From Shewanella cutis (GTDB lineage: Bacteria > Pseudomonadota > Gammaproteobacteria > Enterobacterales > Shewanellaceae): a DNA stretch of 64,000 bases. The notes below the pieces were generated by a model that was given only the letters and a program-made list of their open reading frames with translations, was not told the origin of the DNA and searched no databases. A program made the translations under genes and the position numbers. The DNA lies in contig NZ_JACSDI010000001.1 in the NCBI RefSeq assembly GCF_022410515.1, positions 434,001 to 498,000 of the forward strand. The letters run 5' to 3'. The first letter of the stretch is position 1; every line of letters starts with the position of its first letter. This document shows, in pieces, positions 2,935 to 44,319 of this stretch.

Positions 2935-3645
2935 ATGAAAATAGGTATTATTGGCGCAATGGAGCCAGAAGTTGCTCATCTTATCGCGGCTATGACAAAT
3001 GCTTCATCACAAACCATTGCAGGTATTGAATTTATCGCTGGCACCTTAGCGGGCAAGGATGTTGTCGTCACGCGCTCAGGCATTGGTAAAGTCGCCGCCA
3101 GTATCGCCACAACCCTATTGATTGAAAAATACGCCCCCGATGCGGTAATCAACACAGGTTCCGCCGGCGGCTTTGTCGATTCACTGTCAATTGGTGATAT
3201 CGTGATTTCATCCGAAGTGCGCCACCACGATGTGGATGTCACCGCATTTGGTTACGAAATTGGCCAAATGGCGCAGCAACCCGCGGCGTTTATTCCTGCG
3301 CCATACTTAGTCGAAGCCGCCAATAAGGCCATTGCACAATTAGGCGAAGTAAAAGCGATTGAAGGCTTAATCTGTACTGGTGATAGCTTTATTTGCGACC
3401 CAGTACGCACCAAAACCATGTTGGAACACTTCCCAACGATGGCGGCCTGTGAGATGGAAGGTGCGGCGATTGCCCAAGTCTGTCACCAATTTGGCGTGCC
3501 TTTTGTGGTCATTCGCTCGCTCTCTGACAACGCCAACAACGACTCCCCCGTCGACTTCGATTCTTATATTGTAAAAGCAGGCTATCATTCAGCACTGATG
3601 GTAATGTTGCTGCTTGAGCAATTAGATACAAACTCAGTACAGTAA
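2935..3645 (+). CDS. mtnN: 5'-methylthioadenosine/S-adenosylhomocysteine nucleosidase
   Basis: This cytoplasmic enzyme (MTAN, Pfs) cleaves adenine from methylthioadenosine, S-adenosylhomocysteine and 5'-deoxyadenosine. It serves methionine salvage, SAM-product clearance and the path to AI-2. The 236-residue product has the family's catalytic residues: Glu12 in GAMEPEV, Glu175 in CEMEGAA and Asp198 in RSLSDNA. Length is within the normal 230-240. The ATG at 2935 begins the canonical [10 protein letters not shown] CbiB-like gene starts 31 bp downstream and may share the transcript. Confidence 0.97.
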
Positions 3646-15577: not shown

Positions 15578-15803
15578 TCGTCACTCAGCTCTGCTGATTA
15601 AACGATAAGTTGAACATCGCAATCGGCATTAGCACTTAATGCTTAATGCTTAACGCTTGCCAAGATGACTCCCAACGATACCCTTTGCGGCGGCATATAT
15701 ACTCGCCGCTAAGGGTAATATCAGTTCATACCATCAAGCCTGCAAAAACATTAGCTTAAAGTGTATTGTTGAACCTACACCATTTTGCCCCCAGCCCCAA
15801 CTT

Positions 15804-16081
15804 ATACCAATCGTATTAAATATCTGTTCATTCAGCGGGAATTCAACGCGCTTTAGACAAGGCGAAGGCTTGAAGGCATAGTGGTGCTCCGCCTAAGCCT
15901 TAAACGCAGTATAAAGCGCGTTGCCATACAGTGAACATCAGCCGCCCTTCAGGAGCCTCAAAGGCATCCCACTCCGGTGTTGCATTGACTTAAAAGGGAA
16001 TAACCATTTCTGCGTCAATCCGCCTTGGATTGAAATGCCTGTGAGACTCTGAACTGATTAGATATTTAATGTGATTGGTAT
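15804..16081 (+). repeat. Structured inverted-repeat-ended element, copy 1
   Basis: This 278-bp non-coding element lies between the convergent S9 peptidase and TonB receptor genes. It begins ATACCAATC and ends GATTGGTAT, and the imperfect terminal repeats extend through ATTAAATATCT. TTA lies immediately outside the TACCAATC/GATTGGTA core on both sides. A nested hairpin pairs AACGCGCTTTA (15845-15855) with TAAAGCGCGTT (15912-15922), with AAGGCTT/AAGCCTT inside. A second domain pairs 15953-15971 with 16031-16049, imperfectly. It is homologous along its length to an inverted copy at 43779-44043. No long frame is present, so it is MITE-like or a structured RNA/DNA repeat. Confidence 0.85.
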
Positions 16082-16204
16082 TAACTGACCTGCCGAACTC
16101 GCTTAGCTAAAACTTTTGCGTACCCCCAGTAAAATCGCTTAACTATCTGAAGGAACCATAGCCAACAACAGTTCCTTTCTTGCTTAAGCCATTTAATCGC
16201 TAAT

Positions 16205-41685: not shown

Positions 41686-41820
41686 GGCAAAAATGTCCTC
41701 ATTCTGTATCCCAGTGACTAGCACAGGTAAGTGCACATGGCTATAATTGACGATTTGCGCGGCACTTAGCATAAGCTAACTGTCCGTCGTTGTAACAGTT
41801 TCCCAACTTGGATGATATCT

Positions 41821-43671
41821 ATGGATCATACTCCGCAGTCGCAACTCAAGCTGTTGCTTGCCAAAGGTAAAGAGCAAGGTTACTTAACCTATGCAGAAGT
41901 GAACGACCACTTACCTGCAGACATGGTCGATTCTGACCAGATCGAAGATATTATCCAGATGATAAATGACATGGGTATTCGGGTATTCGAAGAGGCTCCC
42001 GATGCCGATGACATGATGATGTCGGAAGACAACACAGACGAAGATGCAGCAGAAGAAGCCGCAGCCGCTCTTGCCACGGTAGAAAGTGAGCTTGGCCGCA
42101 CCACAGACCCTGTGCGTATGTACATGCGCGAAATGGGTACCGTTGAACTGCTGACTCGCGAAGGCGAAATTGTTATCGCTAAGCGCATCGAAGAAGGCAT
42201 TAACACAGTTCAAAGCTCTGTCGCCGAGTACCCACAAGCGATCGCCATGATCCTTGAACAGTACGACCAGTACGAAGCCGACGAACTGCGCCTGTCTGAT
42301 ATTATCTCTGGATTTGTTAACCCTGACGAAGAAGACCTTGGTCCAACCGCCACCCACATCGGTTCTGAATTATCAGAAGAAGATCTTGAAGATGAAGATG
42401 ACGATGAAGACGAAGAAGATGAAGACGGTGATGGCGACGGTGATGATGATGGCAATAAAGGCCCCGATCCTGAAGAGGCTCGTGAGCGTTTTAGCCAACT
42501 AAGAACTGCCTACGAAAGCGCACTTAAAATTATTGACGCCAAAGGCCGTGAACATCCAGAGTCGATTCAAGCACTGTTTGAAATCGGCGAGATTTTCAAA
42601 GAGTTCCGCTTAGTACCTAAACAGTTCGATCGCTTAGTGAAAAGCATGCGTTCTATGATGGACCGTGTTCGCGTACAAGAGCGTCTTCTGATGAAGCTTT
42701 GCGTCGAACAGGCCAAAATGCCGAAGAAAAACTTTGTTAAGTTCTTCACAGGTAATGAGACCAACCTCGATTGGTTCGAAGCCGAAAAAACCTCAAACAA
42801 ACCTTATGCCGAAGGCTTAAGAATGGTTGAGGAAGACGTACAGCGTTGCCGTAGCAAGCTGGCCGCCATCGAAGAAGAAACCGGTTTAGTCATTGCCGCG
42901 ATTAAAGATATTAACCGCCGCATGTCAATCGGTGAGGCTAAAGCTCGCCGTGCGAAGAAAGAAATGGTTGAGGCAAACTTACGTTTGGTTATTTCTATCG
43001 CCAAGAAATACACCAACCGTGGCCTGCAATTCTTGGACTTAATCCAAGAAGGTAACATCGGTCTGATGAAGGCTGTTGATAAATTTGAATATCGCCGTGG
43101 TTACAAATTCTCGACCTATGCGACTTGGTGGATCCGTCAGGCAATCACCCGCTCAATCGCGGACCAAGCCCGTACGATCCGAATTCCAGTACACATGATC
43201 GAAACAATCAACAAGCTGAACCGTATCTCTCGTCAAATGCTACAGGAAATGGGCCGTGAACCCTCCCCTGAAGAACTGGCTGAGCGTATGATGATGCCGG
43301 AAGATAAGATCCGTAAAGTACTAAAAATCGCTAAAGAACCTATCTCCATGGAAACCCCAATCGGTGACGATGAAGATTCGCACTTAGGCGATTTTATCGA
43401 GGATACTACCCTCGAATTACCACTGGACAGCGCCACCAGCGAAAGCCTGAAGAGCGCCACCCATGAGGTATTAGCTGGCTTAACAGCCCGTGAAGCAAAA
43501 GTACTGCGTATGCGTTTTGGTATCGATATGAATACCGACCACACACTTGAAGAAGTGGGTAAGCAATTTGACGTGACCCGTGAACGTATTCGTCAAATTG
43601 AAGCAAAAGCGCTACGTAAACTGCGCCACCCTTCACGCTCGGAAATCTTAAAGTCCTTCTTAGACGAATAG
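41821..43671 (+). CDS. rpoD: RNA polymerase sigma-70 factor
   Basis: This is the main vegetative sigma factor. The 616-residue product has region 1.1 (residues 1-80), an acidic non-conserved region with a run of Asp and Glu near 190-215, then region 2 ([40 protein letters not shown]), region 3 and region 4.2 ([20 protein letters not shown]). I choose ATG 41821 ([10 protein letters not shown], as in E. coli MEQNPQSQLK). An ATG three codons upstream is possible. It closes the macromolecular-synthesis cluster. A 12-bp tandem duplication repeats its stop codon region. Confidence 0.97.
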
Positions 43672-43705
43672 ATAGACGAATAGATAAGAGTGAAACATTC
43701 AGCTT

Positions 43706-43729
43706 AAGCCCCGCACTGCGGGGCTTTTT
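43706..43729 (+). terminator. Terminator after rpoD
   Basis: AAGCCCCGC pairs with GCGGGGCTT across a three-base loop, followed by TTT. Confidence 0.9.
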
Positions 43730-43778
43730 ATTGCCCCAATAAACATCCCCATAAAATTTCCGCAGAATATCTACTGTT

Positions 43779-44043
43779 ATACCAATCACATTAAATATCT
43801 AATCAGTTCAGAGCCTCACAGGCATCTCAATCCAAGGCGCATTGACGAAGAAATGGTTATTCCCTTTTAAGTCAATTTAACACGGGAGTGAGATGCCTGT
43901 GAGGCTCCCGAAGGGCGGGGTTGAACGGGCTTTATACTGCGTTTAAGGCTTTCGACAGAGCGCCACTATGCCTTCAAGCCTTCGCCTTGTCTAAAGCCCG
44001 TTTAACTCCCGCTGAATGAACAGATATTTAATACGATTGGTAT
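43779..44043 (-). repeat. Structured inverted-repeat-ended element, copy 2
   Basis: This 265-bp element between the rpoD terminator and the tRNA gene is the reverse complement of the family seen at 15804-16081. Its ends are ATACCAATC and GATTGGTAT, again with TTA just outside both core ends. The outer stem here is AACGGGCTTTA (43924-43934) with TAAAGCCCGTT (43992-44002), a paired C-to-G and G-to-C change relative to copy 1. A second domain is a perfect 19-bp inverted repeat, 43811-43829 with 43889-43907. It has no coding capacity. It is clearly related to copy 1 over its whole length, with small indels. Confidence 0.85.
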
Positions 44044-44177
44044 TAACCTCTTTTTAAAAATCAAAAGGTTAAAAACCTCGCCCCCATGCCGACTGTTATA
44101 ACGCCCTAAGCAAAAGCGGCAGTTGATTAACAGATAACCACTTGAATCAATTCGGTGAATTTCATCAAAAAACACGG

Positions 44178-44206
44178 GTGACAAGCGCAAACAAGCTTAG
44201 TATACT
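44178..44206 (+). promoter_or_regulatory. Promoter of the tRNA gene
   Basis: GTGACA (44178-44183) and TATACT (44201-44206) are exactly 17 bp apart. Transcription would begin near 44213, about 30 bp before the mature tRNA 5' end. A close fit to the sigma-70 consensus. Confidence 0.7.
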
Positions 44207-44242
44207 GCCACTCGCTTTAGGTGATGACGATTACCTTTAGTC

Positions 44243-44319
44243 GGCCCCTTAGCTCAGTTGGTTAGAGCACACGACTCATAATCGTTAGGTCCACGGTTCA
44301 AGTCCGTGAGGGGCCACCA
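44243..44319 (+). tRNA. ileX: tRNA with CAT anticodon, probably tRNA-Ile2 (lysidine-modified)
   Basis: This 77-nt tRNA has the 3' CCA encoded. The acceptor stem is GGCCCCT/AGGGGCC, the D arm has GCTCAGTTGGTTAGAGC, the anticodon loop is CTCATAA (CAT at 44277-44279), and the T arm is CACGG/CCGTG. Anticodon CAT alone would suggest Met. The acceptor stem with C4-G69 and C5-G68 matches E. coli tRNA-Ile2, while E. coli elongator tRNA-Met has U4 and A5. TilS uses those pairs to convert C34 to lysidine, giving AUA decoding. I therefore prefer Ile2 over Met. Confidence 0.85.

Follow-up and report, generated by a model that had tools for sequence, protein, structure and literature searches.

The RUP element of pneumococcus is a miniature inverted-repeat transposable element (MITE) mobilised by a transposase of the IS630/Tc1 type, and the hallmark of IS630 is the duplication of a TA dinucleotide. 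Transcript-level effects have been described for other short repeats; in the accessible part of one account, ERIC sequences situated at 3' ends alter the transcript level through an RNase E site, and Correia transcripts are cut by RNase III (PMC10969869). In the sections available to us, QMITE1 and QMITE2 of Coxiella burnetii are presented as gammaproteobacterial MITEs with structured transcripts, and relatives of QMITE2 were found beyond this species (PMC5896051, PMC10969869). As far as these partial sources permit a statement, MITEs with structured transcripts are already known in general (PMC10969869, PMC5896051, PMC4133298).

The present study concerns a 64,000-nucleotide stretch of Shewanella cutis DNA (contig NZ_JACSDI010000001.1, hereafter the window), in which an element of the form TACC...GGTA occurs twice, in mutually inverted orientation. 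Similar to IS630/Tc1-type MITEs such as RUP, the element is gene-less, intergenic, and multicopy, carries terminal inverted repeats, and belongs to a genus that has DDE_3 elements with similar ends. It differs from these MITEs in its duplication, which is a 3-bp TNA rather than the TA of IS630, and in its interior, which is conserved alone and is common to elements with other ends. Of the features of an IS630-derived MITE, the similar ends are present but the TA duplication is not, the TNA form being also present on the DDE_3 elements of the genus. ERIC and Correia/NEMIS resemble the element as short mobile repeats, but no homologous inverted hairpin pair with exchangeable ends is described for them in the available part of the source, and no sequences were compared (PMC10969869). 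The direct repeats of QMITE2 are given in the available excerpts as 7-9 bp, in contrast to the 3-bp TNA of the element (PMC5896051, PMC10969869). The Tn3-derived TIMEs are, like the element, gene-less, with alike predicted folds despite sequence differences; the accessible text assigns them 38-bp Tn3-type ends and, for TIME-composed elements, 5-bp duplications, whereas the element has 27-nt ends and a 3-bp duplication (PMC4133298). The GTAG/REP repeats of Shewanella likewise are palindromic repeats in this genus, but they are described, in the portion of the report at hand, as tagged units of 20-40 bp, a criterion not met by an element of approximately 263-280 bp with terminal inverted repeats and a TNA duplication (PMC3733652).

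Among Rfam families, only tRNA exceeded the gathering threshold in the window, and no family did so in copy 1 or in 15 relative loci. One weak match of Flavo-1 RNA (RF01705) to hairpin 2 of a relative locus (L133) remained below the cut-off (E 0.03-0.045). A search of 148 genomes of the order revealed none over the cut-off of this family and three at E <= 0.01, and membership in Flavo-1 was thereby ruled out. The literature search returned no account of the element or of the shared two-hairpin core among the matches listed; most subscription literature and ISfinder were not covered, and absence from print is not claimed.

The presence of two inverted copies, as proposed in an earlier note on this DNA, was confirmed. 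Copy 1 extends from 15805 to 16080 (276 bp, + strand), as determined from the sequence, BLAST, and the duplication tally, and its limits are set by TTA target duplications at 15802-15804 and 16081-16083. Copy 2 extends from 43780 to 44042 (263 bp, - strand), its limits being set by the TTA duplications at 43777-43779 on the low side and 44043-44045 on the high side together with empty sites. The element therefore lies where the earlier note had placed it (15804-16081 and 43779-44043), but the first and last bases of those intervals are part of the target duplication. The terminal inverted repeats of copy 1 were identified by a repeat search as arms of 27 nt with 85% complementarity (15804-15830 and 16055-16081); from this search and the alignment, the left repeat of the element was assigned to 15805-15830 (+) and the right repeat to 16055-16080 (-). 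The ends read TACCAATC...GATTGGTA, and the sites of the end pattern and the alignment of copies revealed that the left and right ends are distinct from each other and that each is conserved. Copy 2 is located between an ORF resembling the sigma factor gene rpoD (named by eye) and a tRNA-Met gene at 44243-44319, its neighbourhood comprising positions 41812-44319. The claim that no gene lies inside also held; the mechanical ORF list contained no ORF of at least 80 aa within either copy, and a 127-aa ORF on the - strand (43406-43789) overlaps copy 2 only in its last 10 bases.

An exact 3-bp TNA duplication flanks 86 of 117 copies, namely 46 with TTA, 37 with TAA, 2 with TGA, and 1 with TCA; the tally took 117 of 119 rows, L047 and L053 being left out. 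These TTA/TTA, TAA/TAA, TGA/TGA, and TCA/TCA flanks exclude a duplication of TA only for the TACC...GGTA end type. Empty sites in related strains, a comparison suggested in the earlier note, were found for copy 2, to which this analysis was confined; in four relatives, the flanks are kept around a single 3-bp site without the element, the triplet being TTA in L155, CTA in L151 and L152, and CCA in L148.

A match to the Pfam domain DDE_3 was detected in 78 of 126 same-genus genomes. Inverted ends resembling TACCAAT, identical at 12 or more of 16 bases, were present at 15 of 30 same-genus DDE_3 loci, and the transposons at 12 of these 15 (L177, L179, L181-L183, L185-L188, L193, L194, and L200; 944-1,114 bp) have identical 3-bp flanks, all of them TNA, under a scoring of ends that gave no reward for flank identity. 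The other three (L190, L191, and L204) have such ends without identical flanks, and the remaining 15 loci have weaker ends or none. At L178 and L179 (genomes G092 and G071), the DDE_3 match falls into two overlapping pieces in different frames, with several copies of equal score, a pattern resembling that of a recently active element with a frameshifted transposase of two ORFs. On the basis of the terminal inverted repeats, the TNA duplication, the empty sites, the absence of a gene, and the DDE_3 elements with similar ends, the element is a gene-less non-autonomous transposable element (MITE) that inserts at TNA with a 3-bp duplication, which bears out the earlier suggestion of a MITE-like passenger. 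Because the DDE_3 transposons of the genus carry similar ends and TNA flanks, an IS630-type (DDE_3) transposase probably moves the element in trans; transposition is inferred here from the similarity of ends and duplications only.

The two copies, all that the earlier note had described, are members of a family that numbers at least 44 in this genome. BLAST yielded at least 42 matches (40 of 69 candidates were scored), a 23-bp end occurred at 92 sites with up to three mismatches versus none for the reversed control pattern, and 44 copies of the genome were taken into the analysis. Within the genus, 93 of 129 genomes contained a match to the element, and among the matches listed, full-length copies at 73-76% identity were approximately 263-282 bp long. 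A scan of named genomes with a strict core pattern led to a single record, that of Shewanella benthica KT99, which also gave a weak hairpin match (E 0.0053).

Several copies of the S. cutis genome are irregular. A complete copy around L023 lies between two partial matches (G000:C33:340770-341297), a MITE inserted in a MITE. Shortened or partial copies are located within an IS630-type transposase gene at contig ends (L044:3001-3113 and L046:1-84, contigs C28 and C44 of G000), and truncated copies with one end only are present at L041:3001 and L043:3001. A lone end-like ATACCAATCGTATTGAATTTTTG without a visible hairpin core occurs at L045 (reverse strand, end at 3022), approximately 0.2 kb upstream of a gene that by eye reads like a TetR-type regulator.

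The predicted RNA fold of copy 1 comprises a terminal stem and two arms, with z values of -7.75 on the + strand and -7.12 on the - strand (0 of 200 shuffles were as stable); the DNA fold gave a z value of -7.80. The compensated C-to-G and G-to-C change noted between the two copies exists as described (AACGCGC...GCGCGTT in copy 1 and AACGGGC...GCCCGTT in copy 2), but it belongs to the stem of internal hairpin 1 and not to the outer stem. The same pair is broken in some copies, such as L024 and L048 (AACGGGC...GCACGTT). We examined covariation in 66 sequences with a mean pairwise identity of 0.77, obtained from 119 rows by dropping nine and applying a 97% identity filter to the other 110. Parsimony on the tree of these sequences counted, over 93 pairs, 83 events in which both sides changed and one Watson-Crick pair replaced another, compared with 1-5 in eight slid controls, so the excess of paired changes sought in the earlier note is large. 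These counts depend on parsimony and on a structure that was itself inferred from the alignment tested, and are not entirely independent. In an R-scape-like test of all pairs, with substitutions permuted on the tree, only two pairs reached E < 0.05, both within the structure; restricted to the structure, the test supported 10 of 93 pairs, the 66-sequence set being small for such a test.

The covariation extended to an alignment of 79 hairpins of many genera, which was fitted to the covariance model. In this alignment, 94.2% of cells were paired, the covariation score was 0.953 versus 0.222 in shuffled and 0.11-0.14 in slid alignments, and both sides had changed in 620 cells versus 184 in shuffled ones. 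That 19 of 20 pairs had some double change is not decisive, as 39 of 500 shuffles attain this count. Conserved residues also occur outside the stems, in an internal loop (CAAGGC / AACGCAG) and in a ATAGTTATTC-like terminal loop; in one copy (L143:120-380), repeats of a GCGTTGCTCTACCTCCTGC-like unit expand the loop of the first hairpin. A central C(UNCG)G tetraloop was present in 37 of 44 own copies and 41 of 73 other copies, compared with 14.7% of shuffled 60-mers. The DNA strand complementary to C(UNCG)G would likewise form a favourable loop, and the own copies are not independent; we therefore dropped the tetraloop as proof of an RNA.

The core of the element consists of two homologous hairpins of approximately 85 nt in inverted orientation, a relation that the earlier note, which had seen only two internal domains, did not contain. 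Pairwise alignment of the two hairpins within single elements surpassed 500 shuffles only in L067 among the seven alignments listed, and a covariance model was therefore used for homology. The model (R1) was built from hairpin 1 only, with 40 sequences; the underlying set A1 held 40 of 55 relocated hairpin-1 rows and set A2 held 42 of 65 hairpin-2 rows, with 11 hairpins not relocated after the removal of gap columns. At E < 0.01, R1 recovered hairpin 2 from the opposite strand of 20 loci out of the 27 given to it. Hairpin 2 was missed in L126 (E 0.22), in L071, L141, and L143, where one arm was found, and in L136, L137, and L140. Over 400 kb of the S. cutis genome, R1 produced 13 matches up to E 10, of which 11 were in six known copies (a single arm in one), one was in a new element, and one had an E of 0.41; since these matches fall almost wholly in known copies, we regard the model as specific.

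In copy 1, hairpin 1 occupies 15842-15925 with its working sense on the + strand, as indicated by R1 (L001:1539-1622:+), covariation, and G-U bias; the locus of copy 1 is a member of the alignment of the model itself. Hairpin 2 of copy 1, the inverted homologue, occupies 15958-16044 with its working sense on the - strand (L001:1655-1741:-, E 1.2e-5; G-U bias on the - strand). In copy 2, hairpin 1 is located at 43921-44005 on the - strand (L034:1143-1227:-, E 7.3e-20) and hairpin 2 at 43816-43902 on the + strand (L034:1038-1124:+, E 4.2e-8). A few loci (L136, L137, L140, and L242) have, by eye, one hairpin between inverted ends, those of L242 scoring 15; these may possibly be half-units of the two-hairpin element.

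The two hairpins also differ in the strand on which wobble pairs are tolerated. When hairpin 1 was read on the + strand, changes on one side of a Watson-Crick pair produced G-U pairs more often than A-C pairs (42.3 vs 19.8, p 0.007), whereas hairpin 2 read on the same strand exhibited the reverse (13.9 vs 53.0, p 2e-6), so that G-U is favoured on the working strand of each hairpin. The terminal stem displayed no bias (14.0 vs 13.6), and transitions at unpaired sites had no direction matching that of the hairpins. In 48 hairpins of other genera read in the working sense, G-U changes numbered 53 and A-C changes 7, a count that may be biased, since the strand is chosen by a model trained in the working sense. 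On either strand of the element, the hairpin in working sense is the 5'-proximal one. Each hairpin is thus conserved as a single-stranded fold in one sense, with fixed unpaired motifs. The double changes, the G-U bias, and the covariation of the 79 hairpins strongly support selection on the fold across species, as the earlier note had surmised, with the caveat that few pairs passed the R-scape-like test.

Paired changes may also result from a mutational process in which the arms of a quasi-palindrome correct each other by strand switching, without any selection on the fold. Double changes are indeed common, transversion pairs included (17.4 of the 31.9 double changes in arm 1), and a full swap between C-G and G-C separates some closely related copies. 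However, strand switching predicts neither the G-U/A-C asymmetry nor the conserved unpaired motifs, both of which were observed; the asymmetry changes direction from one hairpin to the other and is lacking in the terminal stem, and copies with a broken pair exist. We consider this process improbable as the full explanation. Palindrome-arm correction may add to the double changes without explaining the strand asymmetry or the conserved loops.

The same asymmetry would also be compatible with hairpins that worked as single-stranded DNA, because a G-T wobble is tolerated over A-C in DNA as well. According to this explanation, a strand exposed during replication or excision would fold its 5'-proximal hairpin, and a host factor of replication, repair, or mobility would recognise it, which would aid multiplication of the element under any transposase. 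Each strand holds one hairpin in working sense, which agrees with this explanation. We know of no protein partner of the hairpin, which weighs against it. Although we consider it rather unlikely, the use of single-stranded DNA is the main rival to a role in RNA and cannot be excluded here; no transcript data were available, and the arguments from wobble pairs and loops apply to both.

The hairpin is not confined to Shewanella. At the level of the order, the covariance model detected it in 121 of 295 genomes, representing 35 of 99 genera; the corresponding figures for the class were 46 of 321 genomes and 38 of 243 genera, and for the phylum 56 of 398 genomes. Since only part of the first-look candidates was scored (15 per genome for the order, 13 for the class, and 11 for the phylum), copies per genome are lower bounds. 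Among the 56 genomes of the phylum, 20 are outside the class, and 15 of these belong to one family of small, mostly fragmented genomes; some of the out-of-class matches may be binning contamination. The best of them (L271) starts within 1 kb of the contig start and has TATACCC ends of the type seen in the order. A DNA-level search of the order with L067 retrieved fewer genomes than the covariance model (50 of 394, in 16 of 114 genera). At the sensitivity used, none of 72,556 plasmid records and none of 50,697 phage records matched the window copy, and one exact core pattern had no match in viral contigs. Relatives from other genera matched plasmid records of Vibrio, Photobacterium, Pseudoalteromonas, and Catenovulum, the named hosts being Vibrio tritonius, V. 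casei, Photobacterium sp. DA100, Pseudoalteromonas shioyasakiensis, and Catenovulum adriaticum; the covariance model identified hairpins in all three records checked among these hosts. L219 had no phage match and L238 no plasmid match.

Across genera, the ends surrounding this hairpin core are unrelated. In the order, the TACCAAT type occurs in Shewanella and a few other genera, the TATACCCAAGT..CTTCAAG type in many genera and additionally in one Shewanella locus (L230), and an (A)GGGC-TGTT-A-CTTTG type in L214 and L218; the flanks of the TATACCC type look compatible with TA by eye, without a tally. Five further types were identified in the class, namely GTGTACTGGAACG, GGGAAGCTCTGATTGA, CCCCAACAATCATGC, CTAACCCGAACACTGG, and GGAACCTCTGACTGG (L238, L240, L244, L245, and L247), with scores of 16-20 compared with a maximum of 13 at 60 random places. 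The ten loci examined in the class also include two with marginal ends, L242 (a 163-bp element scoring 15) and L246 (score 14); no credible ends were found at L239 and L241, and L243 was outside the scoring. The ends of three loci of the order remained unresolved: L221 (score 12), L223 (score 9), and L227 (short). L221 was rejected as an end type because its score does not exceed the best of the random places. Two kinds of ends coexist even in the S. cutis genome, where the second type, that of the new element matched by R1, places the hairpin between CTAGGGCGTGTTGACGTTTC and CTAGAGCGTGTTGATGTTTC (L252:8780-9064, score 16).

The core is therefore kept while the terminal repeats change, and the same inverted pair occurs within other ends throughout the class, a finding that goes beyond the earlier note. 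That note had allowed that the element might be an internal remnant of a known insertion sequence. This was not upheld; a core common to elements with unrelated ends argues against a simple remnant, and the core bore no visible resemblance to the insertion sequence of L083/L084, a comparison made by eye only and not systematically. The notion of an ordinary MITE that arose from a DDE_3 transposon by deletion and has a passive interior accommodates the ends, the duplication, and the copy number, but an interior that is conserved between genera within unrelated ends and covaries strongly is unlike a passive one, and we consider this notion very improbable. A core shared by differing end types is also what would be expected of a site for a host factor in single-stranded DNA.

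We further analysed the placement of the copies relative to genes by using crude ORF calls, setting aside five copies that lacked a called gene on at least one side and two inside an ORF. The neighbours of 42 own copies were convergent in 20 cases, co-directional in 21, and divergent in one, whereas the intergenic bases in 400 kb were 12.6% convergent, 66.7% co-directional, and 20.7% divergent (convergent excess, p 3e-8; divergent lack, p 0.001). Against the gaps of at least 40 bases in the window (25.5% convergent and 32.4% divergent), the convergent excess lost strength (p 0.002) and the divergent lack became more pronounced (p 3e-6). In other genomes, 26 copies comprised 8 convergent, 15 co-directional, and 3 divergent cases, without a baseline. 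A preference for TTA/TAA targets combined with purging from promoters could underlie this bias. The orientation at co-directional sites was even (20 vs 16), as a two-sided device predicts. The bias to the 3' ends of genes is more natural for a role in RNA than for one in single-stranded DNA.

This bias is also consistent with the transcription-end repeat entertained in the earlier note, but such a function was not demonstrated. No site resembling an intrinsic terminator was found inside copy 1 or copy 2, the nearest candidate (43706-43726) being outside copy 2; the element is therefore not a simple intrinsic terminator. A further possibility is that the element is a mobile small-RNA gene, with its own promoter and a structured RNA acting in trans, in the manner of a bacterial SINE counterpart. 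Conserved loops and structure without an ORF, the many copies, and the spread across genera are compatible with this possibility, and a sigma-70-like site (TAGACA-17-CATAGT, 9/12) occupies an equivalent position in hairpin 1 of both copies. Nevertheless, promoter-like sites in the two window copies were approximately as frequent as in shuffles (2 vs a mean of 0.9 and 1 vs a mean of 0.9), and the two-sided arrangement and the 3'-end bias fit read-through better, which renders a small-RNA gene doubtful.

We favour, with a probability of approximately 55%, the reading that the element is a transposon-borne hairpin module moved by DDE_3 transposases and acting at the transcript level by shaping read-through transcripts; the function is inferred, and no RNA data support it directly. 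The ends would serve whichever transposase is present, and the core would be the constant part, acting primarily as RNA. With the two hairpins in opposite orientations, read-through from either neighbouring gene would first produce a hairpin in working sense. Given the placement behind genes, this hairpin would most likely shape the 3' part of read-through transcripts through end formation, processing, or protection, possibly by means of a conserved host RNA-binding factor. The hairpin may thereby make insertion downstream of genes tolerable, and the core would be retained as the terminal repeats are swapped. A broader proposal, which we put forward only tentatively, is that an ancient two-hairpin module of RNA or single-stranded DNA persists as a mobile passenger in Gammaproteobacteria, and perhaps in other groups as well, swaps transposon ends while keeping its fold, works from either side, and acts on host transcripts via a conserved factor whose identity has yet to be established.

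The usual view of a bacterial MITE is that of a broken insertion sequence whose interior is of no consequence. In the family described here, the interior is conserved and the ends are exchangeable, which implies that a function is carried by the fold. The two inverted homologous hairpins, with G-U tolerance on opposite strands, yield a direct prediction for compensatory mutants. If the role in RNA is true, a widespread class of bacterial intergenic repeats would belong to RNA biology and not to genomic litter.
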